Positions 43,534 through 60,384 of a stretch of 64,000 bases of DNA are shown piece after piece. Below the pieces are notes generated by a model. The model searched no databases, had not been told where the DNA came from, and was given only the letters and a program-made list of their open reading frames with translations. Made by a program: the position numbers and the translations under genes. Every line of letters starts with the position of its first letter. Position 1 is the stretch's first letter. Location: positions 1-64,000 of the forward strand of contig CAJFTS010000018.1 in assembly GCA_904420015.1 (NCBI GenBank), written 5' to 3'. This DNA comes from an uncultured Clostridia bacterium. GTDB lineage: Bacteria; Bacillota; Clostridia; Oscillospirales; Acutalibacteraceae.

Positions 43534-43567
43534 CCTGTTCGCCCTCCTTTTTTCCTCTTAAAAAGAT

Positions 43568-43597: not shown

Positions 43598-44095
43598 TGG
43601 GGCCGGCAGAGATCTTTTTGCCCTAAGGGGCGATCCTTCTTACAAAGGGTGGTGTCTTACATAGGATTCGGTTCTACGGGGAGGAGGGAACCCTCTCCAA
43701 ATGCCGAAGGGAACGCGCCGTTATCCCCGGCCGGCACGGCTATCGGGGGGATACCCCGCTTTTCCATTCTCCTTAAAAGGCCGGTCCGTGGGGCGCCGTC
43801 TTAGACTGCGGATGAACCTCTTCCCAAGGGGCGGTTGCCGTCCTCGGCTGGGCGGTGGGGCTTCTCCTTAAAGGGCAGCCCGCGAGGTGCCGTCTTAGAC
43901 TGCGGATGAACCTCTTCCCAAGGGGCGGTTGCCGTCCTCGGCTGGGCGGCGGGGCTTCTGCTTCGGGCGGGGCATACTCTCCCTCCTCTCTGCCTGTCGG
44001 TGCTTCGCAAAGCGCCTTTCGGCAGGTGACACGGGGGAGAGCCAGGCACCCTATATTTTACCGGTTTTTTGGATCGCAGGCCGCTTGGAGCAGAA
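43598..44095. repeat. GC-rich intergenic region with a 72-bp direct repeat
   Basis: GCCGTCTTAGACTGCGGATG and the next 50 bases occur at 43795-43866 and again, nearly identical, at 43889-43960 (offset 94 bp). Parts could encode short peptides on either strand, but none has a ribosome site. It looks like duplicated non-coding DNA. Confidence 0.6.
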
Positions 44096-44138
44096 GAAAA
44101 GGACAGGGGCGCCTTTTTTAAGCACCCCTGTCTTTTTC
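44096..44138. terminator. Bidirectional terminator
   Basis: GACAGGGG / CCCCTGTC stem with an A run on one side and TTTTTC on the other. It could end the leftward capEFG transcript. Confidence 0.75.
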
Positions 44139-44220
44139 TTTTTCTGCGCTATGCCGCCTCCAGCCCCACACATATTCGCCGGGCCTGTCCGAATAAAGAT
44201 AGGAAAAAGGAGGCGTTATC

Positions 44221-44382
44221 ATGAAAGAGCATCCCATTTCCATCCGGTTCGAAAACCCAAACCGGCCCCAGGACACCGTCCGGTTCCTCCTCACCTTCTG
44301 CGCAAAGCTGGCGCAAAACCGGGAAGCGGCCCGGCCCGCCCCGAAGGATGGGGAAGAGGAAAGGGGCGGAGAAATGATCTAG
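44221..44382 (+). CDS. Small hypothetical protein, 53 aa (not in ORF track)
   Basis: ATG at 44221 behind a near-perfect AAAGGAGGCG site at ideal spacing; TAG at 44382. The product is hydrophilic, starting MKEHPISIRFENPNRPQDTV, then FLLTFCAKLAQNREAA and an acidic tail ending GEMI. Nothing recognisable. It runs opposite to the polysaccharide genes and ends 8 bp before the capG-like gene's stop. The strong ribosome site is the main evidence that it is real. Its size would fit a small regulator or a recombination directionality factor, but nothing shows that. Confidence 0.6.
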   Translation: MKEHPISIRFENPNRPQDTVRFLLTFCAKLAQNREAARPAPKDGEEERGGEMI

Positions 44383-44390
44383 CCCGGCCG

Positions 44391-45518
44391 TCAGCCCTTT
44401 CTCCAGGTGGTGAGATTGACAATCTTCGCGTAGCTCTGAATGATCTTGACCACTTTTACCGAGACATTCAAATCCGCATAGTCCTCCGCCAGAACCGTTT
44501 CTTCCCCATTTTCAAACATGGAGACCGCCAGGTTCATCGCCTGCTCCACATCCTCGCCCTGGATACCGCCGATGACGATGGTACCCTTGTCGAGCACCTC
44601 CGGCCGCTCGGTGGAGGTACGGATGAGGACGGCGGGGAAATGGAGGATGGCGCTTTCCTCACTGAGGGTGCCGCTGTCGGACAGGACGCAGTAGGCGTTC
44701 TTCTGAAGCTGGTTGTAATCGAGGAAGCCAAAGGGCTTCATCGACTGCACCAGGGGATGGAACGAAAAGCCCCGCTTTTCAATCACATTGCGGCTGCGGG
44801 GATGGGTGGAATAGATAACCGGCATCTGGTATTTCTCCGCAATGTGGTTGACCGAGGTCATCAGGCTCATAAAATGCGCTTCGTTGTCAATATTCTCCTC
44901 CCGGTGGGCGGAAAGAAGGATATAGCCCCGCGGGGCGAGCCCCAGGCGGCTCAGCACGTCGCTCTTCTCAATCTCCGCTTGGTGGTCCCGGAGCACCTCG
45001 CTCATAGGGCTGCCGGTGACGAAGATGGTCTTTCCATCCATCCCTTCGTTGAGCAGGTAGCGGCGGCTGTGCTCGGTATAGGGGAGATTGATGTCGGAAA
45101 TGTGATCCACGATGGTGCGGTTGACCATCTCCGGCACGTTCCAGTCCCAGCAGCGGTTGCCCGCCTCCATATGGAAAATCGGCACCTTCAGCCGTTTGGC
45201 ACTGATGGCGGACAGGGCGGAATTGGTATCCCCCAGCACCAAAAGCGCATCCGGCTTCTCCCTTGCCAGCACCTCATAGGATTTGGCGATGATGTTGCCC
45301 ATGGTCTCGCCCAGGTTGGCCCCTACGCTGTCGAGATAGTAGTCCGGCTGGCGAAGGCCCAGATCCTGAAAGAAAATTTCATTTAGGGTGTAATCCCAGT
45401 TCTGCCCGGTATGGACGATAATATGATCGAAATACCGGTCGGCGCATTTCATCACCGCGCTCAGACGGATAATCTCCGGCCGGGTCCCGATGATGGTCAT
45501 CAGCTTTAGCTTGGACAT
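44391..45518 (-). CDS. capG: UDP-N-acetylglucosamine 2-epimerase family (CapG/FnlC-like)
   Basis: 375 aa from ATG 45518 (GGAGG site). Non-hydrolysing GT-B-like epimerase: MTIIGTRPEIIRLSAVMK, HTGQNWDYTLNEIFF, VLGDTNSALSAI, HMEAGNRCWDWNVPEMVNRTIVDHIS, and LSDSGTLSEESAIL. The HTGQNWD variant and the preceding CapE- and CapF-like genes point to the CapG/FnlC branch that makes UDP-N-acetyl-L-fucosamine, rather than WecB. Third of three consecutive genes for that pathway. Confidence 0.92.
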   Translation of the reverse strand: MSKLKLMTIIGTRPEIIRLSAVMKCADRYFDHIIVHTGQNWDYTLNEIFFQDLGLRQPDYYLDSVGANLGETMGNIIAKSYEVLAREKPDALLVLGDTNSALSAISAKRLKVPIFHMEAGNRCWDWNVPEMVNRTIVDHISDINLPYTEHSRRYLLNEGMDGKTIFVTGSPMSEVLRDHQAEIEKSDVLSRLGLAPRGYILLSAHREENIDNEAHFMSLMTSVNHIAEKYQMPVIYSTHPRSRNVIEKRGFSFHPLVQSMKPFGFLDYNQLQKNAYCVLSDSGTLSEESAILHFPAVLIRTSTERPEVLDKGTIVIGGIQGEDVEQAMNLAVSMFENGEETVLAEDYADLNVSVKVVKIIQSYAKIVNLTTWRKG

Positions 45519-45522
45519 ACCC

Positions 45523-46662
45523 TCAGACCTCCAGAAAATAAGTATCCGGCTTCTCCGGATCAAAGCACTCGTTGCACCACATAAAGGTGACCAGGTCGGT
45601 ATCCCCTACGTTTACGATGCTGTGGGTATACCCGGTGGGGATGTCCACCACCTCAATGCGGTCCCCGGACACCCGGTATTCGAGGACCTCTTCACTGCCG
45701 ATCCGGCGAAAACGGATCAGGCCCTCCCCCTTGACCACCACGAACTTTTCATTCTTGGTATGGTGCCAATGGTTTCCTTTGGTAATGCCGGGCTTGGAAA
45801 TGTTTACGGAAAACTGGCCCCGGTCGGGGGTTCGCAAAATCTCGGTAAAGGAGCCCCGGTCGTCCACATTCATTTTCAGCGGATAACGGAACCCGTCGGT
45901 GGGCAGGTAGCTTAGATAGGTGGAATAGAGCTTCTTTGTGAAGGGGTCGGCCATGTTGGGAACCCCGCGGGTTTCCCGGGTTTCCCGGAAGGAATAAATC
46001 AAATCCACAATTTCACCCAGCGTGACGGCATGCTCCACCGGTACCTTGCAGAAATCGCCGTCCCGGGTTTCCGCCCCCTCCAGGGCACGGACCAGCTCCT
46101 CCACCACGTCGTCGATATACACCAGGGTCATGTTGACCGATGGATCGTTGACGGTGATGGGAAGGCCGTGGGCGATGTTATGGCAGAAGGTGGCGACGGC
46201 GCTGTTGTAATTGGGACGGCACCATTTGCCGAATACGTTGGGGAACCGGTAGATCAGCGTCCCAGCCCCCGTCTCCCTTCCATAGGCGAAGAGCAGATCC
46301 TCCCCCGCCTTCTTGGAATGGCCGTAGGGATTGTCAAGCGCCGCCTGGGTGGAGGAGGACAGCATCACCGGGCAGGAATTGCGGTGTTTTTTGAGGGTGT
46401 CAAGCAGGGTAGAGGTAAAGCCGAAATTCCCTTGCATAAACTCCCTCTCCTCCTTCGGTCGGTTGACGCCGGCCAGGTGAAAGACAAAGTCGCAGTCTGC
46501 ACAGTATTGGTCGAGAAGAGCCGGGTCGGTATCCACATCATAGGGGTAGACGGTAAGGTTGGCAATCCGGCTGCGCTTAGTTTTCCCGCTTTGGATATTC
46601 TCAAATTCCGCAAGCAGGTTTTTTCCGATAAAGCCCTTGGCCCCTGTCACTAAAACCTTCAT
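45523..46662 (-). CDS. capF: CapF-like bifunctional reductase with C-terminal cupin
   Basis: 379 aa from ATG 46662 (AAAGGAATG site). N-terminal SDR domain (VTGAKGFIGKNL, HLAGVNRP, Y-x3-K in YGHSKKAGE) reduces the 4-keto sugar intermediate. The C-terminal cupin (about 260-379; DRGSFTEIL, GNHWHHTKNEKFVVVKGEG, IPTGYTHSIVNVG) carries zinc-binding histidines and acts as C3 epimerase in CapF. Domain order and length match CapF of Staphylococcus. It is 4 bp from the capG-like gene. Confidence 0.94.
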   Translation of the reverse strand: MKVLVTGAKGFIGKNLLAEFENIQSGKTKRSRIANLTVYPYDVDTDPALLDQYCADCDFVFHLAGVNRPKEEREFMQGNFGFTSTLLDTLKKHRNSCPVMLSSSTQAALDNPYGHSKKAGEDLLFAYGRETGAGTLIYRFPNVFGKWCRPNYNSAVATFCHNIAHGLPITVNDPSVNMTLVYIDDVVEELVRALEGAETRDGDFCKVPVEHAVTLGEIVDLIYSFRETRETRGVPNMADPFTKKLYSTYLSYLPTDGFRYPLKMNVDDRGSFTEILRTPDRGQFSVNISKPGITKGNHWHHTKNEKFVVVKGEGLIRFRRIGSEEVLEYRVSGDRIEVVDIPTGYTHSIVNVGDTDLVTFMWCNECFDPEKPDTYFLEV

Positions 46663-46725
46663 ATGGCATTCCTTTCTCACATGCGTTTTTCCTTCGGCAA
46701 GCCAAGGCGGCGCTGCGGCCGCCCC

Positions 46726-47784
46726 TTACCGTTCTTCCCATTCCGCAAGCTCCTTTTGGATATAGGACAAGGTCAAAAGCTTTTCCTTGATCTCTTCGAC
46801 ATTGAGCTGGGTGGTGCTGCTGGAGGTATACTCCTCATACTTCATCCCGCTCCCATGGATGCCCTCGTTGAAATATTTGTCGTAGTTGAGGTCCCGCTTA
46901 TCGGCCGGAACCTTGAAGAAATCGCCCAGATCCACGGCATTGGCGCATTCCTCCTTGGTCAGGAGCGCCTCATACATCTTCTCGCCGTGGCGGATACCGA
47001 TCTCCTTAATCTCATTGTCGGCATGGAACAGCTCCTTGACCGCCTGAGCCAGGTCGCCGATGGTACAGGCCGGCGCCTTCTGCACCATGATGTCGCCGCT
47101 GTTGGCGTGCTCAAAGGCATACAAAACCAGCTCCACTGCCTCTTCCAGGCTCATGATATAGCGGGTCATCGCCGGGTCGGTGACGGTGAGGGGCCGCCCG
47201 CTCTTAATCTGCTCGATAAACAGCGGGATGACCGAGCCGCGCGAACACATGACGTTTCCGTACCGGGTGCCGCAAATGAGGGTTTTTTCCTGGGGAACGG
47301 TACGGGACTTGGCGATGTACACCTTCTCCATCATGGCCTTGGAGGTACCCATGGCGTTGACCGGGTAAGCGGCCTTATCGGTGGAGAGGCAGATGACCTT
47401 CTTGACCCCCGCCTCGATGGCGGCGGTCAGCACATTCTCGGTTCCCAGCACGTTGGTTTTGACCGCCTCAATGGGGAAAAACTCACAGGACGGCACCTGC
47501 TTGAGGGCGGCGGCGTGGAAAATGAAGTCTACCCCGTGCATGGCGTTTTTGACGCTCTGAATATCCCGGACGTCCCCGATATAAAACTTAATTTTATCCG
47601 AGTACTGGGGATACTTGGACTGATATTTATGCCGCATATCGTCCTGTTTCTTCTCGTCACGGGAAAAAATGCGGATTTCCCCGATATCCGTAGTCAAAAA
47701 GCGGTTGAGCACCGCGTTGCCGAAGGAACCGGTTCCGCCTGTAATCAGCAAGGTTTTTCCTTCGAAAATCGATTTGTTTTCCAT
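46726..47784 (-). CDS. capE: CapE-like UDP-GlcNAc 4,6-dehydratase/5-epimerase
   Basis: 352 aa. SDR of the CapD/FlaA1/CapE group: ITGGTGSFGNAVLNRFL, IFSRDEKKQDDMRHKY, and an HAAALKQVPSCEFFPIEAVKTNVLG block in which the catalytic positions of the inverting dehydratases lie. STDKAAYPVNAMGTSKAMME contains the family's M-G-x-SK site. It converts UDP-GlcNAc to the 4-keto-6-deoxy intermediate that CapF and CapG finish to UDP-L-FucNAc. Length is typical of the CapE/FnlA type. Confidence 0.94.
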   Translation of the reverse strand: MENKSIFEGKTLLITGGTGSFGNAVLNRFLTTDIGEIRIFSRDEKKQDDMRHKYQSKYPQYSDKIKFYIGDVRDIQSVKNAMHGVDFIFHAAALKQVPSCEFFPIEAVKTNVLGTENVLTAAIEAGVKKVICLSTDKAAYPVNAMGTSKAMMEKVYIAKSRTVPQEKTLICGTRYGNVMCSRGSVIPLFIEQIKSGRPLTVTDPAMTRYIMSLEEAVELVLYAFEHANSGDIMVQKAPACTIGDLAQAVKELFHADNEIKEIGIRHGEKMYEALLTKEECANAVDLGDFFKVPADKRDLNYDKYFNEGIHGSGMKYEEYTSSSTTQLNVEEIKEKLLTLSYIQKELAEWEER

Positions 47785-47928
47785 GTAAAGCCCTCCTTGT
47801 TTTTCAAAAAGACGCTTCGGTGCGCCCGGTACGCTTGTCCCCCGCCGGTTTCGTTCCCAGGCAGGGGATTTTCGGGTTTTCTCGCCATTCGGCGCCCTGT
47901 TTTTACAAAAGACAAATCACAATGTAGC

Positions 47929-49449
47929 TTAACGTCTGACCAGCAGCTTGAGCCGGCCGAACAGGTCCTTCAAATCCTTCCGATTGAAGAGAAGAGCACT
48001 GAGAAGCACCACGGCGGATGAAACTACAAAAACAATAACCGCGCTCAGCGCCCATTCCAGATAGCCGTTGTTCGGCAGGGGAATAAACCAGAATATCGCG
48101 TATACGACGGCAACCTGAAGGACCACCCGGATCAGGTGAATGACCGTTTCCTTCATTCCGATTTCCTTGAACTTGCGCGAGATAAAGAAAAGATAATCAA
48201 TAAGCCGGTAAAAGTTGGCGGCAATCGCCGCGAGCAAGATTCCATAAAGCCCCAGAAGAGGGGTCATAACAACGCCGCCGATTACCAGAATCCCAGCCTG
48301 AATGCTGTTTTGAACCCGGGTTTCCCGATACATACCGGCCGCTATCGTCATCATGCCCTGGGGGGTTTGGATGGCGCTTAGCAGCCCATTTATGAAAAAC
48401 AACAGCGCCAGCGTCGGTACAATATACAGCTGTGTATCCGAAAGATTTGCCACGTAATTCTTCATAAACGGCATATACATGACGCCGGTTACCGAATAAA
48501 GCACGGTAAGTATGGAATAAAAAGCAAACAAAAATTGTCCGTATACTTTTTTCAGCTTCTTGCGATCCCCTGTGACAATCATTTCTCCGAATGCGGCGTG
48601 CATGCCGGAGCCTGACATGAAGATAGACGCCACATTGTTGATGCCGTAGATGACCAGGTTGTAGACCGTATAAATGCTGACCTGAACCATGTTGGTAAAT
48701 ATCGTAGCCAGTACCACCGGCGCACCGGATTGCAGGTTCCAGAGAATCTGCATGTAAAGCGCATCCCAGCGCTTGTCCAGCGCGCGCATATTCGGCTTTT
48801 CTTTGAAATTGACATATTTGTACCGTTTTCGCATATAGCCCGCCAAAATTGCCGAACGTGCAAAAACAGACAAGGTGGCGATTACCTTCAGCCAGACGAT
48901 GTTCAGATGCAGCACCGCGCACAGCACGATGAGCAGCATGTTTAAAACCACGCCCACCATGGTGCAGATGGACAGGATATACTGCTTTTGGTCGGCGGTA
49001 AAAAGAACGCGGTATTTTGCCATGGTAAAGAACTCCATCGCGCCGGAAACACCCATGACCAAAATCAAGAAAAAGATTTCCTGAACAGACAGGCCCTGCA
49101 CCGACACGATGCTGGCGTAAATAACGGCAAGCACCAGCGTCAGGCCGGTAAACACATACCCGAGCCGGGTATAGGTCCGTTTGGCTGCCGACACGATGCC
49201 GTTGATTCCTTTCACATCATGCTCCGCCAACGGCTTATAGAGGGAATAGACGGCGGCGCCCGACAGCCCGGCTTCAATCAGAGAAATATAGGAAATAAAC
49301 TGGGTAATGGATGCAACCAAGCCGTTGATTTCCGACCCGTAAAACTGCAGCATAATGCGCGGCGATACCAAGCCGACAAGCATCGTCACCACCTGCTGCA
49401 GCGCGCTGAAAGTGGCGTTCAATGCAAACTTTCTGGTCTTATTCATCAT
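47929..49449 (-). CDS. Oligosaccharide flippase-like membrane protein (second Wzx)
   Basis: 506 aa from ATG 49449 (AAGGAGCGGG site, 10-nt spacing); it overlaps the end of the polymerase gene by 11 bp. About 12-14 membrane helices. FALNATFSALQQVVTMLVGLVSPRIMLQFYGSEINGLVASITQFISYISLIEAGLSGAAVYSLY is a common Wzx/teichoic-type flippase opening. Having two flippases in one locus suggests two lipid-linked intermediates, or one for teichoic-like material. Confidence 0.88.
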   Translation of the reverse strand: MMNKTRKFALNATFSALQQVVTMLVGLVSPRIMLQFYGSEINGLVASITQFISYISLIEAGLSGAAVYSLYKPLAEHDVKGINGIVSAAKRTYTRLGYVFTGLTLVLAVIYASIVSVQGLSVQEIFFLILVMGVSGAMEFFTMAKYRVLFTADQKQYILSICTMVGVVLNMLLIVLCAVLHLNIVWLKVIATLSVFARSAILAGYMRKRYKYVNFKEKPNMRALDKRWDALYMQILWNLQSGAPVVLATIFTNMVQVSIYTVYNLVIYGINNVASIFMSGSGMHAAFGEMIVTGDRKKLKKVYGQFLFAFYSILTVLYSVTGVMYMPFMKNYVANLSDTQLYIVPTLALLFFINGLLSAIQTPQGMMTIAAGMYRETRVQNSIQAGILVIGGVVMTPLLGLYGILLAAIAANFYRLIDYLFFISRKFKEIGMKETVIHLIRVVLQVAVVYAIFWFIPLPNNGYLEWALSAVIVFVVSSAVVLLSALLFNRKDLKDLFGRLKLLVRR

Positions 49450-50983
49450 GCATATCCCGCTCCTTATCCAACGTGATACCCTGCGCTGCCAAATCCGTTC
49501 CATTCGGCAAGGCGCCGGAAGCGTCCTCCGATACATATGCCGTCGTCCGCTTCTGCTCCTCCTGTGAGAAAGCCCGCAGGCCTTTTCTCCGTACTAGATT
49601 TTGGAAAAAATAGTACAAAACGCACAGGTAGAGCACCCGCTTGCCGGCAAATACCACATCCAGGAAATCTGCCCTTACATAAAGGAGAATTCCGTATGAA
49701 ACATACAACAGCATACTGGAGCGCAAAGGGTGGCCCTCCTCCGTCCCCCTCTCCAGCAGCTGCGATATCTTCGCCACCCCAATACCGAAAAGCGCCGCCA
49801 AGATCAGCGAATACCAACCGAAGTTAATATAGAATTCTGCGAAAAGAGATCCGCCCAGCGTTCCCACCGCAGGAGCATATGGATTAAGCAAGACGATGAC
49901 AGACTTATATTGCTTGATCCCGCCAAAAAGAGAGTTGGAAAAGGGAAATAACACGGCGAGTGCGCCCAGAAACGATTTCCCATTTAAAAAGCCAAAGGCA
50001 TCCGCATACTGGAAGGACAGAATGGGAGTAACCAGGGTGGATCCAAACTCGGACAAAAACTGGGTAAAGGGGTTGTTCGTGCTCAGGTATTCCCAGAAGC
50101 CCATATCTGTGGTTTTTCCCCGGATAAAGGCAATAAACGGCATCAAAACCACAATTCCTACACAGATTGCCGCCACCGAAATCCAATTTTTGCGGGTATA
50201 GGGCTTGATAAACCAATGCTTGGCAAGAATATAGAGTATGGCGGTAATCAGCATATTGCCTCGGTTTCCCACCAGCAGCATCAAGGCCAGCGCACGAATC
50301 AAGGCATAGTAATAAACGGCCTTCCAAGGTCGGTTCTGACCCTTTGCCGTTACCAGAATACAGAGAACGGCGGCGGGCAAATAAGCCTCAAGGTCGCCGA
50401 AAATACCGGTATCGGTGGTGTATTTTGCCAAATAGCCCACCTGGGAGGCGGAGGTAATCATCTGCACGTCATAGATCAACACCGGGATCAAAAGCACGCA
50501 AAACAGCACCAGGCCAAACTGATACACCCGCCGCCCTCTCTCCTCGTTTAGTCCCAGGGACGGCGTTTTCTCCGGCTGCCGCTCCCTCCTTCGACGGGTT
50601 ACAAGCAGCATCCCGCATGTATTCATGACATTGAAGGCAATCAGGCAAAACATGAGGGTTTGCTGCAGATCATACCGGCTGTACAAATCCAACAGGTCAT
50701 AGGCAATAGAGGTATCCACCCGCGCGCCGAACACATATAAGACCAGCTGGCCGAAGTGGAAAAGAACCAAAAACAGCATGAAGCAGAAATAGAGGGTAAA
50801 AATGCGCCTTTGCCGTACTGCAATCAATAGAAGGGAGGCCGCAGAGTTAATCAGAACAAGGGCAACCACGCCGTCAAAGGTCCTTTCCGCGTCAAAAAGC
50901 AGATACACGGAAAACAAGGTCAACAGTATTTGAAAGAACAGGGGAAGGTCGATAACCAGTCTTTTGTTTCTTGGCTTGTCCAA
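49439..50983 (-). CDS. Oligosaccharide repeat-unit polymerase, Wzy-like
   Basis: 514 aa, about 12 membrane helices with a large central external loop and a charged C-terminal tail. The YAPAVGTLGGSLFAEFYINFGWYSLILAALFGIG segment is characteristic of the O-antigen polymerase Wzy family. It should polymerise flipped repeat units on the outer face. It makes the locus a Wzx/Wzy-dependent system. Base composition is lower in GC than the neighbouring sugar-nucleotide genes, as is usual for wzy. Confidence 0.85.
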   Translation of the reverse strand: MDKPRNKRLVIDLPLFFQILLTLFSVYLLFDAERTFDGVVALVLINSAASLLLIAVRQRRIFTLYFCFMLFLVLFHFGQLVLYVFGARVDTSIAYDLLDLYSRYDLQQTLMFCLIAFNVMNTCGMLLVTRRRRERQPEKTPSLGLNEERGRRVYQFGLVLFCVLLIPVLIYDVQMITSASQVGYLAKYTTDTGIFGDLEAYLPAAVLCILVTAKGQNRPWKAVYYYALIRALALMLLVGNRGNMLITAILYILAKHWFIKPYTRKNWISVAAICVGIVVLMPFIAFIRGKTTDMGFWEYLSTNNPFTQFLSEFGSTLVTPILSFQYADAFGFLNGKSFLGALAVLFPFSNSLFGGIKQYKSVIVLLNPYAPAVGTLGGSLFAEFYINFGWYSLILAALFGIGVAKISQLLERGTEEGHPLRSSMLLYVSYGILLYVRADFLDVVFAGKRVLYLCVLYYFFQNLVRRKGLRAFSQEEQKRTTAYVSEDASGALPNGTDLAAQGITLDKERDMHDE

Positions 50984-50995
50984 TGGTTCTCTCCT

Positions 50996-52192
50996 TTACT
51001 CAGTTGGGTTCGGGCAGGCGGACGGCCCTATGAGCTGATAGAACCGCTGCATTTCTTCCAGGTTGGAGTAATCTATTTTCTTTACCTGTGCTTTCATGGC
51101 GGGAAGGTCATATTTTCCGTCGAGCAGATCCCGCAGCGCCTCGTACGGCGCCTGGTCGTTGTTTTCCATGATAATGCCGTCGATCTGATGGCGAACCTGG
51201 CTTTTGGCGGAGGAATAGTTGCTGACCATCGGGACAAGGCCCAGCATCTGCGCCTCGGTGACCGCCATAGGTTTGCCTTCATACCGGGAGGGCAGGAAGA
51301 AAACATCCATCTGCTTTTCCATACGGTATGGGTTGAGCTTCTGCCCCAGCAGAACGATCTCCCGTTCAAGGCCGTTCTCCCGGACCATCTCCTTGAGCGC
51401 CGGCAGGTCCGGCCCGTCCCCGATGATATACCATCGCAGGCCCTTCAGACGATTCTCCCGCTTGAGCCGAATGAACGCTTGTACCCCCCGGTCCAGCCCC
51501 TTGGAGACGAAGGCCACCCGGCAGACGGTAACCAGATTCATCGAATCGGGATCCAAGTCCAGCGGGGTTTCCAGAGGACGGGCGGCCATGTCCCGCACCG
51601 TCTTTTGGTTTAATATATTTTCCATACAGACCGCCTTATGGCGAAATTCCGGATACATCCCAATAAAATTTTGCAGGCAGGAGTCCGAAACCAAGACCAC
51701 CTGATCGAGAATGGAAAATACCGAACGGCTCAGCTCCTTTTTAAGCCCCGCTTCCTTGATATCGATGTGGATCCAGCCAAGCTTTCTTTTGGCCTTCACC
51801 CGGCGGCAGAGATATTCCGTAGGCCAAAACTCGAGAAAGCTGATCCCCACGTCATATTCCTTGCAGGGCGGCATACAGGAAAGGGCCTCGTATTTGGACA
51901 TAATCTGGGCGTTGATAAGCTTATTTTTATAGGCACGGCTCAGCCGCCGGGCCTTTTGTAAATGAAACCAAAAGGATGGATTCATCAATTTTACAATGGG
52001 ACGGGTGCTTTCACAAGCAGGGGGCAAAACCGTCACGCTGGGATGGATGAAGGATTGCAGGTCTCCAGTATTGTCGTAAAGCTGCAAATCCACATGGTAC
52101 CGGCTGTAATCAATCGCGTTGAGCAGGGAAAGCAAACTGGTAGTACTGCCTCCAACCACCATTTTGGAATAAACAATCAAAATATCTTTCAT
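50996..52192 (-). CDS. Glycosyltransferase family 4 protein
   Basis: 398 aa GT-B enzyme. N-terminal half has KMVVGGSTTSLLSLLNAID, the C-terminal donor domain has VCRVAFVSKGLDRGVQAFIRL, WYIIGDGPDLPALKEM, FLPSRYEGKPMAVTEAQMLGLVPMVSN with the E-x7-E donor motif. Builds part of the repeat unit on the cytoplasmic face. Acceptor and sugar are unknown. Confidence 0.9.
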   Translation of the reverse strand: MKDILIVYSKMVVGGSTTSLLSLLNAIDYSRYHVDLQLYDNTGDLQSFIHPSVTVLPPACESTRPIVKLMNPSFWFHLQKARRLSRAYKNKLINAQIMSKYEALSCMPPCKEYDVGISFLEFWPTEYLCRRVKAKRKLGWIHIDIKEAGLKKELSRSVFSILDQVVLVSDSCLQNFIGMYPEFRHKAVCMENILNQKTVRDMAARPLETPLDLDPDSMNLVTVCRVAFVSKGLDRGVQAFIRLKRENRLKGLRWYIIGDGPDLPALKEMVRENGLEREIVLLGQKLNPYRMEKQMDVFFLPSRYEGKPMAVTEAQMLGLVPMVSNYSSAKSQVRHQIDGIIMENNDQAPYEALRDLLDGKYDLPAMKAQVKKIDYSNLEEMQRFYQLIGPSACPNPTE

Positions 52193-52221
52193 GGCGTATC
52201 TACCTCCGGCGTGCGCCTTTC

Positions 52222-53478
52222 TTAGGGATGGGCAATCCCCATCATGTCCAGAATTTTCGATACCTGGGTTTTCGGGCCCTTATGGGCAAGGACGAATTCC
52301 TGGTTCCTTCGTCCCAACTCCGCCAGTTTTTCGGCGCCCAGTTTTTTCATCTTTTCGATTGTCTCGGCCATCGACTGGGGTGTTTCCTCTTCAAAATAGG
52401 TCAGATAGCCGTCATACTCATCGGGAATCCCCCGCACCTTAAAACAGGCTACCGGCTTTCCCAGAATCATATACTCCATCGTTTTCGAGGGGAAGGAAAG
52501 GGCGGTATGAATGCCGAACTCCGGCATAGAGTTGACCAACAAATCCGCGCTGCTCTGCAGGCGGATGGCATCCTCATGCTTGAGTACCCCGAGATAATGA
52601 ATGTTGGGGTTCTTGGCCGCATTGGCCTTAACCTCTTCCCGGCCGTCTCCATCGCCGCAAAGATAGAGGTGAATCTTTTTGTCTGCGATCTTCCCGAAGG
52701 CTTCGGTCAACATCACCGAGCCGTAGCGTTTGTGAAGGGTTCCGGTATAGACCACCCGAAATTCATCGTCCGATTTGGGAAAACGCGCCTGTTCAGACAC
52801 CTTCTCTTTCCTCTCCGCCATCTGAATATTTGCGATTCCTTCCACCACCACATAGGGCCGGCTTCCCACCTTAAGCGGTTCCTTCATGGGATCGGCCAGA
52901 AGGACAAAGGAATCGAGATACTTGAGATTTTTATAGGTCGTGTCGATCATGATCTTTCTGGGCAGACCCTTGATTTTCCCCTTCAGGCCCTGCAAATCCT
53001 TGCGCTCGTCCATTTCATTCATATCGGTGACCAGGCAGGTCAGGGAAAGGTCGGGCAGCTTCTTCTTGAGCTTCCCCGCCGCCCGCAGGAACCCGGCGTA
53101 ATGGCTGTAAAACAAAAGATTGCGGTTTCCCTCCGACTGCCTATACCACTTCTTCGCAAACCGGTAGATGCGCACGCTTTTGATATAGGTTTCCAACCCC
53201 TTAATGTTGAGAAAACCCAGCAGGGCGTCTTTTTCATGCACCCCGTCGTGGGCCCAGCGGCGGCTGTGAATCCAGAGCTTTGTGAACATATGGGGATAAT
53301 ACCCGATAAACGGGCAGGTCAGCACCGTCATTTTCCCGGGAATATTCGCGTCAAACCCTTCGATCAGCCGCCAGGAAAGCACATTGGCGGCGTTCTGGGG
53401 CATGACCTTGGAATGGACGACAAAATAATCGTTGTCCTTCGGATAGCAGCCGGTGACAAACAAGACGTTTTCTTTCAT
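52222..53478 (-). CDS. Glycosyltransferase, GT4-like
   Basis: 418 aa, GT-B fold. The C-terminal half shows FRVVYTGTLHKRYGSVMLTEAF, HLYLCGDGDGREEV, HYLGVLKHEDAIRLQSSADLLVNSMPEF and FPSKTMEYMILGKPVACF, the donor-binding pattern of GT4. The N-terminal acceptor domain is divergent. It is 4 bp from the truncated acyltransferase gene and in the same operon. Confidence 0.88.
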   Translation of the reverse strand: MKENVLFVTGCYPKDNDYFVVHSKVMPQNAANVLSWRLIEGFDANIPGKMTVLTCPFIGYYPHMFTKLWIHSRRWAHDGVHEKDALLGFLNIKGLETYIKSVRIYRFAKKWYRQSEGNRNLLFYSHYAGFLRAAGKLKKKLPDLSLTCLVTDMNEMDERKDLQGLKGKIKGLPRKIMIDTTYKNLKYLDSFVLLADPMKEPLKVGSRPYVVVEGIANIQMAERKEKVSEQARFPKSDDEFRVVYTGTLHKRYGSVMLTEAFGKIADKKIHLYLCGDGDGREEVKANAAKNPNIHYLGVLKHEDAIRLQSSADLLVNSMPEFGIHTALSFPSKTMEYMILGKPVACFKVRGIPDEYDGYLTYFEEETPQSMAETIEKMKKLGAEKLAELGRRNQEFVLAHKGPKTQVSKILDMMGIAHP

Positions 53479-53482
53479 GATT

Positions 53483-53923
53483 CTACCACAGCACCTTTAA
53501 GAAATGTAAGCGGGGGGTCAGCTTGACCACCAGCAGGGAGAAGCCCGTCACCAATCCCAGCGTCAATAGAAGCCCTACATAGGAATTGCTCCACAACAGC
53601 CCGAACACATCCGGGAACACGGAGGGAAGCGCGGACAAAAACAGACGCTGGCTGACAAACATCAGCAGGATGCGTTTGATATATTTGACGAAATAAGCCT
53701 TTTTTCCCGAAGGCTCTGCAAGGCGGCGGAACTTGTCAAAGAAGAGGAAGCCGCTGCAGCAGAAGAAAAAGGGCACGGCGATGATATAAATGGAGAAGCC
53801 GTAATCGATAACCGTGGGGAAATGCCCCCGCTCGCTGGCGAAATGGGCCGCGATAATCAGCAGCGCGCAGCCGAATTTGGCTACGTCTAAGGAAGGATAG
53901 ATTTTTCTAGCGATGGTCTGCAT
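53483..53923 (-). pseudogene. Truncated acyltransferase 3 family gene
   Basis: 146 aa where the family has 330-370. Residues 1-90 match the start of acyltransferase 3 proteins (YPSLDVAKFGCALLIIAAHFASERG, SIYIIAVPFFFCCSGFLFF). Then about 200 residues are missing and the end (SNSYVGLLLTLGLVTGFSLLVVKL..LKVLW) looks like a family C-terminus. An in-frame internal deletion explains this. It retains a start, a GAGGTGA site and no stop. It overlaps the upstream gene by 17 bp. A functional short variant is possible but unlikely. Confidence 0.65.
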
Positions 53924-55223
53924 GGCGGCTCACCTCGGTTATGGTATCGATGAGGGTGGAGGCAATCTGCTCCTGGGAGTGGTTGCGTTCCCCACACTGG
54001 AAGGCAAGGCGGCCGTATTCCAAGATCCTTTGCGGATGGTCGCACAGGCTTTGCAGCCGGGTGCGGATTTCTTCTTCGCTGGACGCCACGCAGGCGGCCC
54101 CTTCCCGCAAAAAATAGTCGATGGGGGCGATTTCCGGCACGCCCACGGCAAAGATACATTTCCCGCTCTTGAGATAGTCGGTGATCTTCGTCGAAAAGGA
54201 AAGCCGGGCGCTCATACATTCCTTTGCATCCAGGCTTTCCACAAACACCAGGATATCCGCCCGGCGCTGCACCTCCATCACCTCGCTTAGGGAAAGGGCC
54301 CCTCTGACGGTACAGCCGTTGCGGTTGAGGGCCCGCTCCTGCTCGGCGGTCAGGGAATCGGTGGTATAGATGTCCAGCGTCATACGGGGCTTGTCCCGGT
54401 TGATTTCCCCCAGCGCCTGGGCGATGGCCGCCAGAGAACGCCAGCGGCCGATAATCAGCTTTCCGGTATAAACCATCTTGATGGGGTCGGACAGCCCGTG
54501 GGGCTCAAATTTCACCTTGGTAAAATCGATCCCCTTGGTCAGCAGGATACTATCCACCCCGAAGATCCGGTCGTATTCCTCCTTCTGCTTGGGCGCGATG
54601 ACAAACATCTTCCCGCACCGCTCCACCACCCGTTTGACCTGCCGGCGCAGAAAGAAGCGGTGGAGGTAGGCCAGCGGGTTCCTTTTGCAGGGCTTATAGG
54701 TATAGTTGTCGTCCGCCAGGTAGCAGACCGCCGGTTTCCCGGTTTTTTTAAGCAGGTAGTTTTGCAGTCGTCCCATATAAATGGTGGGATAGATGGGCAG
54801 AAAGAGCAGGTCGGGCGAGAACTCCTCCACGAAGGCGTCCAGCTGCGGGGTTTTCCATTTGCCGAATTTCCATACCAGCTCCCTGCAGCAGCTTAGAAGC
54901 CAGGACTGCTTCTTGCGGGCCTTTTTGTAAAGCCGCTGCTCGGCTTCCAGCTCCCTTTTCGCCTGCCCGTCGGGCTGCCCGGCCTCGTTCTCCACCTGCT
55001 TGCCGGTAACGGTACCCCGGCGCAGAAGGCTGTGCATCACCGCGTTTTCCGAAATCTGAAAGAAGCGGCGGCATATGGCGGTTTTCGGCAGGGCCGACCG
55101 GGTGTACACCTGGGCCAGGCGGTCGGGGTCCCAGACCTTGAACAGCTCGATTAAGGTGCTGATCCCGGTATTGTCCCGCCAGGCATTGGTTGAGACTACA
55201 AGTACGTTCGGTAATGCTTTCAT
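53907..55223 (-). CDS. Glycosyltransferase, GT4-like
   Basis: 438 aa GT-B enzyme with a basic insertion (about 75-110, KQVENEAGQPDG..KKARKKQSW). Donor domain: IKMVYTGKLIIGRWRSLAAIAQAL, LDIYTTDSLTAEQE, LSLSEVMEVQRRADILVFVESLD, FSTKITDYLKSGKCIFAVG. The E/D residues of the usual E-x7-E site are shifted to FSTKITDYL. Substrate unknown. Part of the polysaccharide operon. Confidence 0.85.
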   Translation of the reverse strand: MKALPNVLVVSTNAWRDNTGISTLIELFKVWDPDRLAQVYTRSALPKTAICRRFFQISENAVMHSLLRRGTVTGKQVENEAGQPDGQAKRELEAEQRLYKKARKKQSWLLSCCRELVWKFGKWKTPQLDAFVEEFSPDLLFLPIYPTIYMGRLQNYLLKKTGKPAVCYLADDNYTYKPCKRNPLAYLHRFFLRRQVKRVVERCGKMFVIAPKQKEEYDRIFGVDSILLTKGIDFTKVKFEPHGLSDPIKMVYTGKLIIGRWRSLAAIAQALGEINRDKPRMTLDIYTTDSLTAEQERALNRNGCTVRGALSLSEVMEVQRRADILVFVESLDAKECMSARLSFSTKITDYLKSGKCIFAVGVPEIAPIDYFLREGAACVASSEEEIRTRLQSLCDHPQRILEYGRLAFQCGERNHSQEQIASTLIDTITEVSRHADHR

Positions 55224-55232
55224 CGTATTCCC

Positions 55233-56198
55233 CTATCTGACTTGATCGGCGAGCTTCAAAAAGAACAGCAGGCCGCGAAAGCCCGCAAGTCGGTATATCT
55301 TCGCAAATTTTTTTGCGCGGGCATTGGAATCATAGCGGAACAAAAAGGCGAGCCCGCGGACCCTTTCCCGGTATCCCTTCCGGTTTTCCCCCCGGTAGCG
55401 CACAAACGCCACCAGCAGGTTGCAGTAAAGCTTGGTCATCGACTGGAGCATAACCTCCTGCCGCCGGCCGGTGAGCTCCTTTTGAAACCGGTCCGACCAG
55501 CGCTCCAGCACCCGGATAAAATCCGCGATGGTCTTTTCCTTGACCACCGCCGTCACCGAGCCCGGCCGCTGCCGGTAGGCGATATAGGACCGGTCGAGCA
55601 GGGCGATCCGGCCCGCCTTTTCCAGCACCTGGTAGTACCAGTCCATATCCTCGCAGGAGAGGGATTCGTCAAAATAAAAGCCGTTTTCTTTGAGCAGGCT
55701 GCACCGGACGCTCTTGCTCCAGGCGGAGCAGAAGAAGGCGTCCCGCTTGACAAGCTCCCGGATCATCTCCTCCTGCTTCTGCTCGCCGCCAATCCCCGCA
55801 AAGGAAAAGGCGCAGTCGGACAGGCCCTTGTCCTCCCAATACTTCTGATATTTATAAAGGATCACGTCGGGGTTCTCCCCAGCCTTCCCGCGCAGGTCGG
55901 CGAGGAAGCCGGGGCTCAACAGAAAATCGTCGCTGTCGAGGAAAACCACATACTCTCCCCCGGCCGCCCGCAGGCCCATATTGCGGGCGGTGGACTGGCC
56001 GCCGTTCTCCTTATGGAGGACCCGGACGCGGGGATCCTTGGCGGCATACCCGTCGCACAGGGCGCCGCTCCCATCGGTAGAGCCGTCGTCCACCAGGATC
56101 ACCTCAAAATCGCCGTCGGTCTGGGACAGGACGCTGTCCACGCAGGGGGCCAGATATTTCCCGGCGTTGTATACCGGAATGATTACGCTGAAAAACAT
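55233..56198 (-). CDS. Glycosyltransferase family 2 protein
   Basis: 321 aa. GT-A fold: SVIIPVYNAGKYLAPCVDSVLSQT, EVILVDDGSTDGSG, ENGGQSTARNMGL, VVFLDSDDFLL (DxD), and CEDMDWYYQVLEKAG carrying the catalytic ED motif. Typical of enzymes extending capsular repeat units with UDP-sugars. 10 bp from its neighbour, same operon. Confidence 0.93.
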   Translation of the reverse strand: MFFSVIIPVYNAGKYLAPCVDSVLSQTDGDFEVILVDDGSTDGSGALCDGYAAKDPRVRVLHKENGGQSTARNMGLRAAGGEYVVFLDSDDFLLSPGFLADLRGKAGENPDVILYKYQKYWEDKGLSDCAFSFAGIGGEQKQEEMIRELVKRDAFFCSAWSKSVRCSLLKENGFYFDESLSCEDMDWYYQVLEKAGRIALLDRSYIAYRQRPGSVTAVVKEKTIADFIRVLERWSDRFQKELTGRRQEVMLQSMTKLYCNLLVAFVRYRGENRKGYRERVRGLAFLFRYDSNARAKKFAKIYRLAGFRGLLFFLKLADQVR

Positions 56199-56201: not shown

Positions 56202-57134
56202 TCATTTCTCCTTATTTACCACGCAGCGGGGCTCTTCCCCCCGTTCGACCCGGGCAAGGTTTGCAAGGATGTGATCGTCCCTTCTCTCCCTGGACTCCTG
56301 GGAGATGGCGGCCACACCCGGGAGGATGACGGTATTCCTCAGCCGCCTGAACCGGTTGGTAACCGGGTTCGGAAAGACCTCAAACATATCCAAAACCGCG
56401 CCGCCCAACTGCCCGCTCTTTAACGCCGCGTACAGGTCGTCCTGCCGGATCACCGCCTTGCGCCCCACGTTGACAAAGACCGTTTCCCGGGTCATGCAGC
56501 CGAAAACCGTCCGGTCGAGCACCCCGCGGGTTTCCGCATTGTCCGGCAGGGTGGAGATCACATAGCGGCAGGCGGGCAGCGCCTGTTTCAGCGCCTCCAT
56601 ATCCCGGAAGAGCCGTGCATACTCCGGCTTTTCGGGGCAATAGGGGTCGTAGCCCCAGACCGTCATGCCCAAGCCGTTGAGCCGCCGGGCCACCTCGGTG
56701 CCGATGCTGCCCGCACCCAGGATCACCGCCGTTTTCCCCGCAAGCTCGGTCAGATAGCGATAGCCCCGGGTCAGGCGCAGGCGGTGGCGCTTGGGGTTTT
56801 TGTGGTACCGCTTGGCCATCTGCAGCATGCCGTATACCACCGTCTCCGCGATCGGCACGCTGTAAACCGAGCCGGCGTTGGCCACCGCTACCCCTGCGGA
56901 CGCATAGGCCTCCAGCGGCACCCCGTCGAAGCCGGCGCTGGTGAGCTGGACCAGCTTCAGGCCGGGAAAGGGGAGGGACGCCGCATCAATGGCCATGGCG
57001 CGGCTGCCCACGATGGCCGTCACCTCCGTCTTGCGCGGGTAGGAGGCCAGCTGGCCGCGGGTTATTTTTTCCACCGTAAGCCCCGGCCCTGCCTGGGGCA
57101 GCCCGATCTCCGATAACACCAACATCCCGATCAC
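56202..57134 (-). CDS. D-isomer-specific 2-hydroxyacid dehydrogenase
   Basis: 310 aa with GTG start overlapping the aldolase stop (ATG at 57125 is an alternative). NAD domain: GKTAVILGAGSIGTEVARRL, then the catalytic Arg region STLPDNAETRGVL, NVGRKAVIRQDDLYAALKSGQLGGAVLDMFE with Glu, but the usual catalytic His region reads VILPGVAAISQESRERR without a clear GGH/PH, so activity may be altered. Members reduce 2-keto acids or oxidise D-2-hydroxy acids. Next to an HpcH-type aldolase in a polysaccharide operon, it may supply a hydroxyacid substituent. Confidence 0.88.
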   Translation of the reverse strand: MIGMLVLSEIGLPQAGPGLTVEKITRGQLASYPRKTEVTAIVGSRAMAIDAASLPFPGLKLVQLTSAGFDGVPLEAYASAGVAVANAGSVYSVPIAETVVYGMLQMAKRYHKNPKRHRLRLTRGYRYLTELAGKTAVILGAGSIGTEVARRLNGLGMTVWGYDPYCPEKPEYARLFRDMEALKQALPACRYVISTLPDNAETRGVLDRTVFGCMTRETVFVNVGRKAVIRQDDLYAALKSGQLGGAVLDMFEVFPNPVTNRFRRLRNTVILPGVAAISQESRERRDDHILANLARVERGEEPRCVVNKEK

Positions 57135-57934
57135 CCATTCACAATTTTATTGACGCAGTCGCGTACCAAAAGGCGGTTCTCTTCAAACTGCCGGGGGGTC
57201 CAGGATGCAATTTCCCGTTCCCGGCTGCGGATTTTTTCAATCTCCGCTTTCAGATCCAGCGGCTCCTGCCCGCTCCCCACCTCGTTGCGGAAGGTCCTAG
57301 AAAGGATGGCGCTGGTGGAACCGATGCGGTAATGCTCGCCTAAGATATAGTCGGCGGGCAGCATCCCTTCCCCGATCTTGGCAATGCCGCCGAAGCCGAA
57401 GGGGATCTTTTTGGCTTTCGCCTTATCTGCCATATATTCCACAATCCCGCCGCTCAGGGTCTCAAACATAAACTTGAGCCCCAGGCTGATATGCAGATCG
57501 TTAAGACCTATGTAAATTTCATCCACCCCCCCCAGATCCAGGAAATCATCCATCCGCACCAGTGCCTGCGCGGTTTCCAGCAGCAGGCAGACCTTGGCCC
57601 GGCCGCCCACCATCTCCACAAACCGCTGCACATCGTCCGCGTCGATGACCATGGGGAGCATGACGATGTCCGCCCCATCGGCAATCACCCGGTCCACTTC
57701 CGCCTTCAGGCCGGGGTTGATGGGATTGACCCGCACCAGCAGGTCGGCCTTGTCCACCACCCGGCGCAGCTTGGCCACATCCTCCACGGAATTGTGGGAA
57801 ATCAGGGTGTTGCGGCCCATCTGCCGTTCGATTTTGTTGATGTATTCCAGGTCCAGGAAGATCCGGTCCACACCGGCCTGCTGTGCCTGCGCCGCGAACA
57901 CCGGGTCCGCGGTCAAAAGCATGAGCTTCATCAT
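57131..57934 (-). CDS. HpcH/HpaI aldolase/citrate lyase family protein
   Basis: 267 aa from ATG 57934 (GGAGG site). TIM-barrel class II aldolase or citrate-lyase beta-like protein: DRIFLDLEYINKIERQ, LLVRVNPINPG, ADIVMLPMVIDADDVQRFVE, CLLLETAQALVRMDDFL (metal-binding Glu), EIYIGLNDLHISLGL (metal-binding Asp). It should split or join a pyruvate- or acetyl-CoA-derived unit. Couples by overlap to both neighbours (ATGA to the GT, GTGA to the dehydrogenase). Confidence 0.88.
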   Translation of the reverse strand: MMKLMLLTADPVFAAQAQQAGVDRIFLDLEYINKIERQMGRNTLISHNSVEDVAKLRRVVDKADLLVRVNPINPGLKAEVDRVIADGADIVMLPMVIDADDVQRFVEMVGGRAKVCLLLETAQALVRMDDFLDLGGVDEIYIGLNDLHISLGLKFMFETLSGGIVEYMADKAKAKKIPFGFGGIAKIGEGMLPADYILGEHYRIGSTSAILSRTFRNEVGSGQEPLDLKAEIEKIRSREREIASWTPRQFEENRLLVRDCVNKIVNG

Positions 57935-59088
57935 GTCGTTTCCTCCAGAAGTCGTTCGTAATCCCGGCACTGCGCCTGCACCATCTTTTTGCGGTCAAAA
58001 TAGGTTTCCACCCGCCGTCTGGCCTGGCGGCCGAACCGCAGGCGAAGCTCCGGGTCGCGCAGGAAGGCGGTCATCCGCTCCTCCAGGCTCACCCGGTCCT
58101 TCGGCTGCGCCAGCAGGCAGGAGATCCCTTCCTCCATCACCTCCGACGCGCCGGGGATGGCGGTGGTGACCACGGCGCAGCCCATGGCCGCCGCCTCCTG
58201 CAAAACCATCCCGAAGCCCTCCCGGTAGGAGGGATGCACATAGACGTCGGTGGCCGCGTAATACATCCGCAGGTCGTGCTTGTCGATACGGCCGGTGAAC
58301 ACCACGTCTGGGCAAGCCTTTGCCCAGTCGAGCAGCTCCCGGTCCATGCTTTCGTCCATTTCAAAGGAACCGACCATCAGCAGCTTTGCCGACGGGTTGT
58401 GCGCATGGATGCTGCGGAAGGCCGCCAGCAGCTCCCCGCTGCCCTTGTCCCGGGAGATCCGGCCCACAAAGCCGAACACCACCCCATCCCCCAATTGGTA
58501 CCGGCTTCGGATCTTCTCCCGCCATTCTTCCTTTTTCGACAGGTCGTATTCCTCCAGGTCCACCCCGATGGTACCGCCCTGGCCCAAAACCACGGCTTTT
58601 TCCTCGGGATAAAGCCCCTCCTCCACCGCAAACCGCTTATTCAGGAAGCTGACCGCCCGGATATGGGTGGAGTTGCGGCAGACGGTTTTCTCCAGGCGCT
58701 TGAACACCCGGCGTGCCATCCCTTCAAACCCCACATACCGGATGCCCCACTGGCAGTAGAGCCGCACCGGCACCTTGGTTTGCTTTGCGGCTATGGACGC
58801 GTAAAGGGAGGCGTTGGGGGTGGCGTACTGGACCAAATCAAACCGGTTTTCCGAAAACAGCTTTTTCATCTGGGAAACCGCCGTCAGGCCGGACAGGCTG
58901 ATTCCCCGTTCCATCCGGATGGGGACAAACCGGATGTAAGGCGGGAGGGAAGCGGCGAACCGGTCGTCGCCGCGGCAGGCAAAGGTGATCTCCCAATCCG
59001 GGTGGATTTCATGCAAAGTCTTGACCGCATCCAGCACAAAGGCTTCCAGGGTCATGGACACGGTACTAATCAGACAGATTCTCTTCAT
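57931..59088 (-). CDS. Glycosyltransferase family 4 protein, CapM-like
   Basis: 385 aa GT-B enzyme. N-terminal ISTVSMTLEAFVLDAVKTLHEIHPDWEITFACRGDD; donor domain VVFGFVGRISRDKGSGELLAAFRSI, LLMVGSFEMDESM, VVFTGRIDKHDLRMYYAATDVYVHPSYREGFGMVLQEAAAMGCAVVTTAIPGASEVM with the E-x7-E motif. Close to CapM/PglA-like enzymes that add the second sugar of a repeat unit to a lipid-linked acceptor. Same operon. Confidence 0.93.
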   Translation of the reverse strand: MKRICLISTVSMTLEAFVLDAVKTLHEIHPDWEITFACRGDDRFAASLPPYIRFVPIRMERGISLSGLTAVSQMKKLFSENRFDLVQYATPNASLYASIAAKQTKVPVRLYCQWGIRYVGFEGMARRVFKRLEKTVCRNSTHIRAVSFLNKRFAVEEGLYPEEKAVVLGQGGTIGVDLEEYDLSKKEEWREKIRSRYQLGDGVVFGFVGRISRDKGSGELLAAFRSIHAHNPSAKLLMVGSFEMDESMDRELLDWAKACPDVVFTGRIDKHDLRMYYAATDVYVHPSYREGFGMVLQEAAAMGCAVVTTAIPGASEVMEEGISCLLAQPKDRVSLEERMTAFLRDPELRLRFGRQARRRVETYFDRKKMVQAQCRDYERLLEETT

Positions 59089-59203: not shown

Positions 59204-60328
59204 TCAAACAAACAGGCCCTTGACGATGCCGATGATCCGGTCCATGTCCTCTTCGGTGTTTTTCACGTCCGAGGGCAGGCAGAGGCCCCGCTCAAAAACG
59301 CGTTCCCCTACCGGGGCGCCGCCGGTCACTTGGATAAAGTCGTTTTTTGCAAAGACCGGCTGCATGTGCATCGGCTTCCAAATAGGCCGTGACTCTATGT
59401 TTTCCCGCTCCAGCGCCTCCATCACATCCAGCGGCGTCACCCGGCTGGCGGGGTCGATGGTGATGCAGGAAAGCCAGAAGTTGGGGGTGCTGCCGGGCAA
59501 GTATGGATTCATCCGGATTTCCGGGATGGATGCAAACGCCTGCCGGTAGGTCTCATAGATAGCCTTCTTTTTCTGTATATGCAGGTCCAGCGACTTGAGC
59601 TGGCCCCGGCCGATTCCCGCGACGATGTTGGACATGCGGTAATTGTAGCCGATCTCGCTGTGCTGGTAATGGCGGGCGGGGTCTCTCGACTGGGTGGCCC
59701 AGAAGCGGGCCTTTTCCACCGCCTCCCCGTCCTCGGACACCAGCATGCCGCCGCCGGAGGTGGTGATGATTTTATTGCCGTTAAAGGAAAAAACACCGTA
59801 CTTTCCAAAGGAGCCGGTCTGTTTGCCGTGGTATACGGCGCCCAGGCTCTCCGCCGCGTCCTCAATCAAGGGCACCTGATGCGCGCTGCAGATCTCCCGG
59901 ATTTCATCGAGCTTTGCAGGCGTGCCGTAAAGATTGACGAGCACAACCGCCTTTGGGTTCGGGTATTTTTCAAATGCTTTTTCCAGGGCCTTGGGGTCCA
60001 TGTTCCAGCTTTCCTCCTCGCTGTCCACAAAGACCTGCACCCCTTTTTCATAGGAAACCGGGTTGACCGTGGCCGCAAAGGTCAGGTCGGAGCAGAATAC
60101 CACGTCCCCTTCCCCGACGCCGGCGAGCTTCATCGCCAGGTGGAGCGCAGCGGTCCCTGCGCTGAGGGCGGCGGCGTGGGATACCCCCACGTAAGCGGCC
60201 AATTCCTTTTCAAACTCGTTGACGTTTTTGCCGAGAGGGGCCACCCAATTGGTGTCGAACGCCTCTTGGATATACCGCTGTTCCTCCCCGTGCATGGTGG
60301 GAGAGGATAGATAAATTCGCTTATTCAT
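59204..60328 (-). CDS. DegT/DnrJ/EryC1 family sugar aminotransferase
   Basis: 374 aa from ATG 60328 (GAGGAATGG site). PLP fold-type I: HAAALSAGTAALHLAMKLAGVGEGDVVFCSDLTFAATVNPV, LIEDAAESLGAVYHGKQTGSFGKYGVFSFNGNKIITTSGGGML with the PLP lysine in NGNKI, and GYNYRMSNIVAGIGRGQL. It transfers an amino group from glutamate to a keto sugar. With CapE-like dehydratase and NeuD-like acetyltransferase it could make a diacetamido sugar such as bacillosamine. First gene after the operon promoter. Confidence 0.94.
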   Translation of the reverse strand: MNKRIYLSSPTMHGEEQRYIQEAFDTNWVAPLGKNVNEFEKELAAYVGVSHAAALSAGTAALHLAMKLAGVGEGDVVFCSDLTFAATVNPVSYEKGVQVFVDSEEESWNMDPKALEKAFEKYPNPKAVVLVNLYGTPAKLDEIREICSAHQVPLIEDAAESLGAVYHGKQTGSFGKYGVFSFNGNKIITTSGGGMLVSEDGEAVEKARFWATQSRDPARHYQHSEIGYNYRMSNIVAGIGRGQLKSLDLHIQKKKAIYETYRQAFASIPEIRMNPYLPGSTPNFWLSCITIDPASRVTPLDVMEALERENIESRPIWKPMHMQPVFAKNDFIQVTGGAPVGERVFERGLCLPSDVKNTEEDMDRIIGIVKGLFV

Positions 60329-60384
60329 ACCATTCCTCATATCTATACCGATTTCCAACGGTTTATTTGACTATATTCTTTTTT

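Follow-up and report, generated by a model that had tools for sequence, protein, structure and literature searches.

The two genes at positions 56202-57934 of the window (the whole stretch of 64,000 nucleotides that was analysed), encoding an HpcH/HpaI-type aldolase and a homologue of the 2-hydroxyacid dehydrogenases, are, judged from the sequences of related loci, one version of a recurrent module that would form a precursor branch of polysaccharide loci. In these surface-polysaccharide loci, the aldolase would be the constant part of the small module, and one interchangeable partner enzyme per locus would determine what becomes of the keto acid. The full explanation that we favor, and regard as rather likely, is that a (4-hydroxy-)2-oxo acid produced by the aldolase is converted to a hydroxy or amino acid and carried into a surface polysaccharide, with a variant of this route in the window's genus. 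Phrase searches of the literature, which were narrow, found no description of the aldolase module. The genes of the window considered here are as follows.

57131-57934, (-): HpcH/HpaI-type aldolase of 267 aa, the proposed constant gene of the module (PF03328, 49.2 bits, cut-off 25)
56202-57134, (-): 2-hydroxyacid dehydrogenase homologue of 310 aa (Pfam 2-Hacid_dh_C, 127 bits, and 2-Hacid_dh, 45 bits)
57931-59088, (-): GT4 glycosyltransferase, upstream of the aldolase (PF00534, 117 bits)
59204-60358, (-): DegT/LegC-like sugar aminotransferase (PF01041, 330 bits; TIGR04181, 372 bits, below the cut-off of 420)
55233-56198, (-): GT2 glycosyltransferase, downstream of the dehydrogenase after a 3-nt gap (PF00535, 128 bits)
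42931-55223, (-): remainder of the polysaccharide operon, including further glycosyltransferases (several Pfam matches)
49439-50983, (-): Wzy polymerase (PF14296, 88 bits)
47929-49536, (-): Wzx-like flippase, read by eye from the translation alone
44391-47784, (-): FnlA/B/C-type nucleotide-sugar genes (FnlA-, WbcJ- and WecB-type NCBIfam matches)
42931-43533, (-): NeuD/PglD-type acetyltransferase (NeuD-type NCBIfam match)

As read from the DNA, the aldolase and dehydrogenase genes have 4 bp in common (GTGA), and so do the GT4 and aldolase genes (ATGA). The preliminary description had the pair overlapping its neighbors by 4 bp on both sides, and this holds on the upstream side, whereas the dehydrogenase and GT2 genes do not overlap. 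With Wzy, glycosyltransferase and nucleotide-sugar genes together, the locus is, by its gene content, identified as a Wzx/Wzy polysaccharide biosynthesis operon, extending from the DegT/LegC-like aminotransferase gene to that of the NeuD/PglD-type acetyltransferase. An initiating sugar transferase was not found in the window locus, and both Bac_transf genes of the genome lie on other contigs. No acid-activating enzyme was recognized near the aldolase/dehydrogenase pair, and an AsnB-like gene was likewise not found in the window locus. The DegT/LegC-like aminotransferase might provide an amino sugar, and because it occurs in the window together with the NeuD/PglD-like gene, an amino sugar may be available there. 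At 53483-53923 (-), a 146-aa Acyl_transf_3 ORF has ends that match residues 1-90 and 293-353 of an intact 353-aa homologue in locus L013 (83% identity at each end); it looks like the outcome of an in-frame internal deletion that removed about 200 codons from an acyltransferase gene. The gene at 53907-55223 (-) recurs in 12 of the 35 aldolase loci compared, and its product, for which no Pfam or NCBIfam match was obtained, looks by eye like a GT-B glycosyltransferase.

Relatives of the aldolase, mostly 41-56% identical to the window protein, were present in 20 of 391 genomes sampled from the class, 22 of 394 from the order and 4 of 399 from the phylum, a scarcity consistent with the earlier statement that such families are rare in capsule loci. 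In plasmid and phage collections, relatives were found only on two plasmids, both of Rhodobacterales, and in one unannotated faecal "phage" record. Up to 20 kb was fetched around each relative, and 52 loci were examined. Neighborhood genes were called and labeled with HMMs made from gene clusters, the identities of the clusters being taken from Pfam and NCBIfam. For the case-control comparison, genes within 6 kb were counted, and 40 sugar-transferase loci of the same class without the aldolase served as controls.

An initiating sugar transferase lay within 6 kb of the aldolase in 45 of the 52 loci, and nearly all 52 were of the polysaccharide type or had such a transferase close by, which bears out the link to polysaccharide loci drawn in the preliminary description. 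An enzyme acting on 2-oxo acids was within 6 kb in 39/52 aldolase loci, compared with 1/40 controls (Fisher p = 1.4e-13, a value inflated by the shared ancestry of the loci). This comparison contradicts the idea that two unrelated metabolic genes merely came to lie in a polysaccharide operon by chance. HpcH/HpaI and 2-Hacid_dh are large families found in many contexts, as chance placement would suppose, but the association recurs over many families as well as against the controls, and two glycosyltransferase fusions and purifying selection, described below, also speak against it; we assign chance placement almost no probability. A catabolic context was rejected by the same comparison: over the 52 loci the pair was not common beside unrelated catabolic genes, and no catabolic operon was among the loci viewed.

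The partner in the 39 loci was a D-2-hydroxyacid dehydrogenase (24 loci), an Ldh_2 dehydrogenase (7) or a class-IV aminotransferase (8). Two partner types never occurred together (0/52 loci, with about 7 overlaps expected), and an overlap of zero was reached in 0 of 100,000 random draws, or in 1 of 100,000 when the window's genus was counted once, figures that shared ancestry inflates in the same way. Along the aldolase tree, at least 7 changes from one partner type to another can be counted. Typical gene orders were, in the D-2-hydroxyacid dehydrogenase type, sugar transferase, aldolase, D-2-hydroxyacid dehydrogenase, glycosyltransferase; in the Ldh_2 type, aldolase, sugar transferase, Ldh_2; and in the amino type, aldolase, PLP decarboxylase-like gene, sugar transferase, class-IV aminotransferase. 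The class-IV aminotransferase scored 295.7 bits, above the NCBIfam cut-off of 279 for branched-chain transaminase, and the Ldh_2 protein was nearest to L-sulfolactate and ureidoglycolate dehydrogenases, below both NCBIfam cut-offs. Thirteen of the 52 loci had no 2-oxo-acid enzyme within 6 kb, and the partner is therefore not obligatory in cis.

The simplest reading of these gene combinations is that the aldolase product would be a 2-oxo acid whose fate is set by the locus. A 2-hydroxyacid dehydrogenase partner would convert it to a D-2-hydroxy acid, an Ldh_2 dehydrogenase to an L-type 2-hydroxy acid, and an IlvE-like aminotransferase to a 2-amino acid. The hydroxyacid substituent or precursor that had been proposed for the pair fits the alternative dehydrogenases, and has to be widened to take in the relatives with an aminotransferase. 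In six aminotransferase-type loci (L044, L047, L058, L089, L104, and L105), a LysA/FslC-like PLP decarboxylase homologue is found beside the aldolase, and because of this companion the product of this type may be an amine.

Several loci had other arrangements, two of them near-minimal. A sugar transferase-aldolase pair at L100:8896-10359 has no further polysaccharide genes seen close by, and at L042:8891-10671 an aldolase-dehydrogenase pair occurs without a sugar transferase, with an FkbM-type methyltransferase gene nearby. On the Rhodobacterales plasmids (L017 and L018), the aldolase relative is accompanied by asnB, NeuB, CMP-transferase, NeuC and DegT aminotransferase genes, and HisH/HisF-like and amidotransferase genes are also beside it, a gene content that would suit a locus for nonulosonic acid; plasmids of two genera carry this stretch in nearly identical form.

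Enzymes of acid-activating type (AsnB-like, full AsnB, ATP-grasp, and CapK/PaaK-like) were present in 12/52 aldolase loci and 0/40 controls, the CapK/PaaK-like label corresponding to weak NCBIfam matches without a Pfam match. In the AsnB-like proteins the GGxDS motif is kept, and a glutaminase domain was not seen. Where present, an AsnB-like, ATP-grasp or CapK/PaaK-like enzyme would activate the acid, which would probably form an amide with an amino sugar. This step would fall early in the assembly of the repeat unit on its lipid carrier, beside the initiating sugar transferase and the glycosyltransferases that act first. The preliminary description suggested an ether or ester, and the amide-forming enzymes, found in a minority of the loci, favor an amide instead. 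We consider it unlikely that the aldolase extends a sugar, joining pyruvate to a (nucleotide) sugar of aldehyde or keto type to yield an ulosonic-acid-like or branched acidic sugar for the sugar transferase or glycosyltransferase, with the partners reducing or aminating the 2-oxo group. Such a role would suit the tight pairing of the aldolase with the initiating sugar transferase, nearly isolated in L100, its fusion to a glycosyltransferase, and the NeuB, CMP-transferase and NeuC genes of the L017 locus. However, the acid-activating enzymes in 12 loci indicate a separate acid, and the PLP decarboxylase-like partner in 6 loci is better suited to a small amino acid.

Evidence on the activity of the aldolase itself comes from its family and its predicted fold. 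Across 49 family sequences, 28 columns are invariant, and by definition these are kept by the window aldolase; the family has an invariant set of its own (D28, E30, K34, R37, Q38, E200, H201, and R213). E120 and D146 are also invariant and, by alignment and family profile, align with the YfaU/HpaI segment holding the metal ligands. Invariant R68 lies where a barrel strand ends, and a weak pairwise alignment sets it two residues off Arg70 of HpaI, the residue that holds the pyruvate enolate. For the HpaI His base (His45, in a DGEH-type motif) no evident counterpart was found in the family, which has D-[LM]-E and then a variable position, K34, R37, and Q38 being invariant instead, a motif that we take to be equivalent to the DGEH-type motif. 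Because the His base is without a counterpart, we class the aldolase as working like a pyruvate aldolase and not as a member of HpaI. Its AF2 model (pLDDT 92.5) has the PEP/pyruvate TIM-barrel fold, and the best matches among solved structures were pyruvate kinase and HpaI/YfaU (TM 0.62-0.67, 14-18% identity). The family profile matched YfaU/HpaI pyruvate aldolases at E 1e-8 and CoA lyases at E 0.6. A CoA-type citrate/malyl lyase was rejected on these values, and would also leave the 2-oxo-acid partner enzymes unexplained, although the family motif D-[LM]-E...K..R resembles that of CitE.

From sequence and model, the predicted activity is that of a class II pyruvate aldolase, which would most likely form a (4-hydroxy-)2-oxo acid by condensation of pyruvate and an aldehyde. 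Enzymes of all these kinds (class II aldolases, dehydrogenases, and aminotransferases) work in both directions, and the aldolase might instead cleave an acid oxidized or deaminated by the partner, supplying an aldehyde or pyruvate (e.g., to be used in pyruvylation). We regard this as quite improbable, since pyruvate is abundant without an aldolase and the loci are biosynthetic polysaccharide operons.

The aldolase is also linked to a glycosyltransferase. Of 10 case loci with close relatives of the window's GT4, 9 had them adjacent to the aldolase or fused with it, and in the tenth the distance was 2.6 kb; among the controls, one locus had a GT4 relative. Single-ORF fusions were detected at L015:6759-8810 (+), where GT4 precedes the aldolase (683 aa), and at L097:8420-10444 (-), where it follows (674 aa). 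The opposite domain orders indicate two independent fusions, which are good evidence, at the level of sequence, that the two proteins are functionally coupled. The fused aldolase of L015 is the one nearest to those of the window's genus, and it is without an adjoining dehydrogenase, which would fit a relaxed need for reduction in the window's clade.

The dehydrogenase of the window has a predicted structure (pLDDT 86) that matches D-2-hydroxyacid dehydrogenases. The absence of a catalytic His motif had been noted before, and alignment to solved 2-hydroxyacid dehydrogenases and to aldolase-linked relatives confirmed it, the canonical TPHNS reading LPGVA with His replaced by Gly273. The catalytic Glu has been lost as well: when aligned to aldolase-linked relatives, LDxFxxEP reads LDMFEVFP (xEP to VFP), with Phe254 at the position of Glu. 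Arg225, which is invariant in 22 aligned dehydrogenase sequences, and the Rossmann GxGxxG are retained. By motif count, all 21 aldolase-linked relatives from other genera have Glu and His intact, and all 3 sequences of the window's genus (the window and two congeners) lack them, and their loss appears, among the relatives seen, to be confined to the window's lineage. All three congeneric sequences have a G to K change beside the catalytic Arg (Lys226). Comparisons of the window with its congeners gave dN/dS values of 0.18-0.22 for the dehydrogenase and 0.06-0.16 for its operon neighbors. The gene is under purifying selection and is not decaying, and a pseudogene was rejected, since the frames are open in three species and dN/dS is about 0.2. 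In the best tree, the window dehydrogenase falls outside the other aldolase-linked ones, with a long branch (1.7 changes per site); a single clade of all aldolase-linked dehydrogenases was not rejected (AU p = 0.29), and the protein may be either a divergent orthologue or an independent recruitment.

The best reading of these sequences is that the reduction step has probably been altered or lost in the window's lineage. Since only one of the three catalytic residues is left in the reductase, the product of the window may not be the reduced acid; with the other two lost and selection persisting, this genus probably uses the keto acid without reduction, or the dehydrogenase has been given a new or structural role. 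Continued activity of this one protein as a reductase, with other acid/base residues such as Lys226 beside Arg225, is possible but doubtful. Purifying selection, the retained Rossmann motif and Arg, and the G to K change shared by all three congeners would be expected of an active enzyme, but Glu and His are both gone in all three sequences and retained in 21/21 other relatives, and in L015 the nearest aldolase relative has no dehydrogenase next to it.

The recurrence of loci with the aldolase and one partner suggests an undescribed small-acid decoration of the cell surface in some gut bacteria and two marine bacteria. More tentatively, and with less confidence than in the general route, we propose an undescribed, widely shared pathway, in which a keto acid for surface polysaccharides comes from a distinct HpcH/HpaI-like subfamily of aldolases, exchangeable enzymes decide whether it ends as a D-hydroxy, L-hydroxy, or amino acid, and the disarmed but conserved reductase of the window's genus has acquired a new role, either with a keto-acid-bearing polymer or in an aldolase-glycosyltransferase scaffold. 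If the proposal is true, the loci would serve as a code from which a non-sugar acid in surface polymers could be read off the genomes of gut Clostridia and two marine Rhodobacterales, the partner gene would predict whether the acid is a hydroxy or an amino acid and its handedness, and a role would be found for an unnamed aldolase subfamily carried by about 5% of sampled class genomes. The surface-polymer chemistry of these commensals is little known, and it matters for recognition by hosts and phages. The window dehydrogenase is also a naturally occurring example of the loss of catalytic residues from an enzyme that is nevertheless retained in its operon under selection.

Compared with known systems, the aldolase family resembles the HpaI/YfaU (RhmA) class II pyruvate aldolases in its PEP/pyruvate TIM-barrel (TM 0.62-0.64) and in the aligned Glu and Asp metal ligands, but differs in sequence (14-18% structural identity), in having no evident His base and an invariant set of its own, and in a polysaccharide rather than a catabolic context. 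With the D-2-hydroxyacid dehydrogenases (Haloferax D2-HDH and the phosphoglycerate dehydrogenase family), the window protein has in common both Pfam domains, the Rossmann motif and the catalytic Arg, whereas it and its two congeners are without the catalytic Glu and His, and the other aldolase-linked relatives keep all three residues. The AsnB-like proteins in aldolase-dehydrogenase loci L040, L046, L050, L057, and L098 resemble amide ligases of the beta-lactam-synthetase type, with the ATP-binding GGxDS and no glutaminase domain, although their Pfam matches are weak (25-27 bits). We know of no HpcH/HpaI aldolase among the genes VC0248-VC0252 of the V. cholerae system described next. In V. cholerae O1, 3-deoxy-L-glycero-tetronate (2,4-dihydroxybutyrate) acylates the perosamine of the surface polysaccharide (PMC3441752), and the likeness to the route proposed here is that a surface polysaccharide bears a 2-hydroxy acid on one of its amino sugars.
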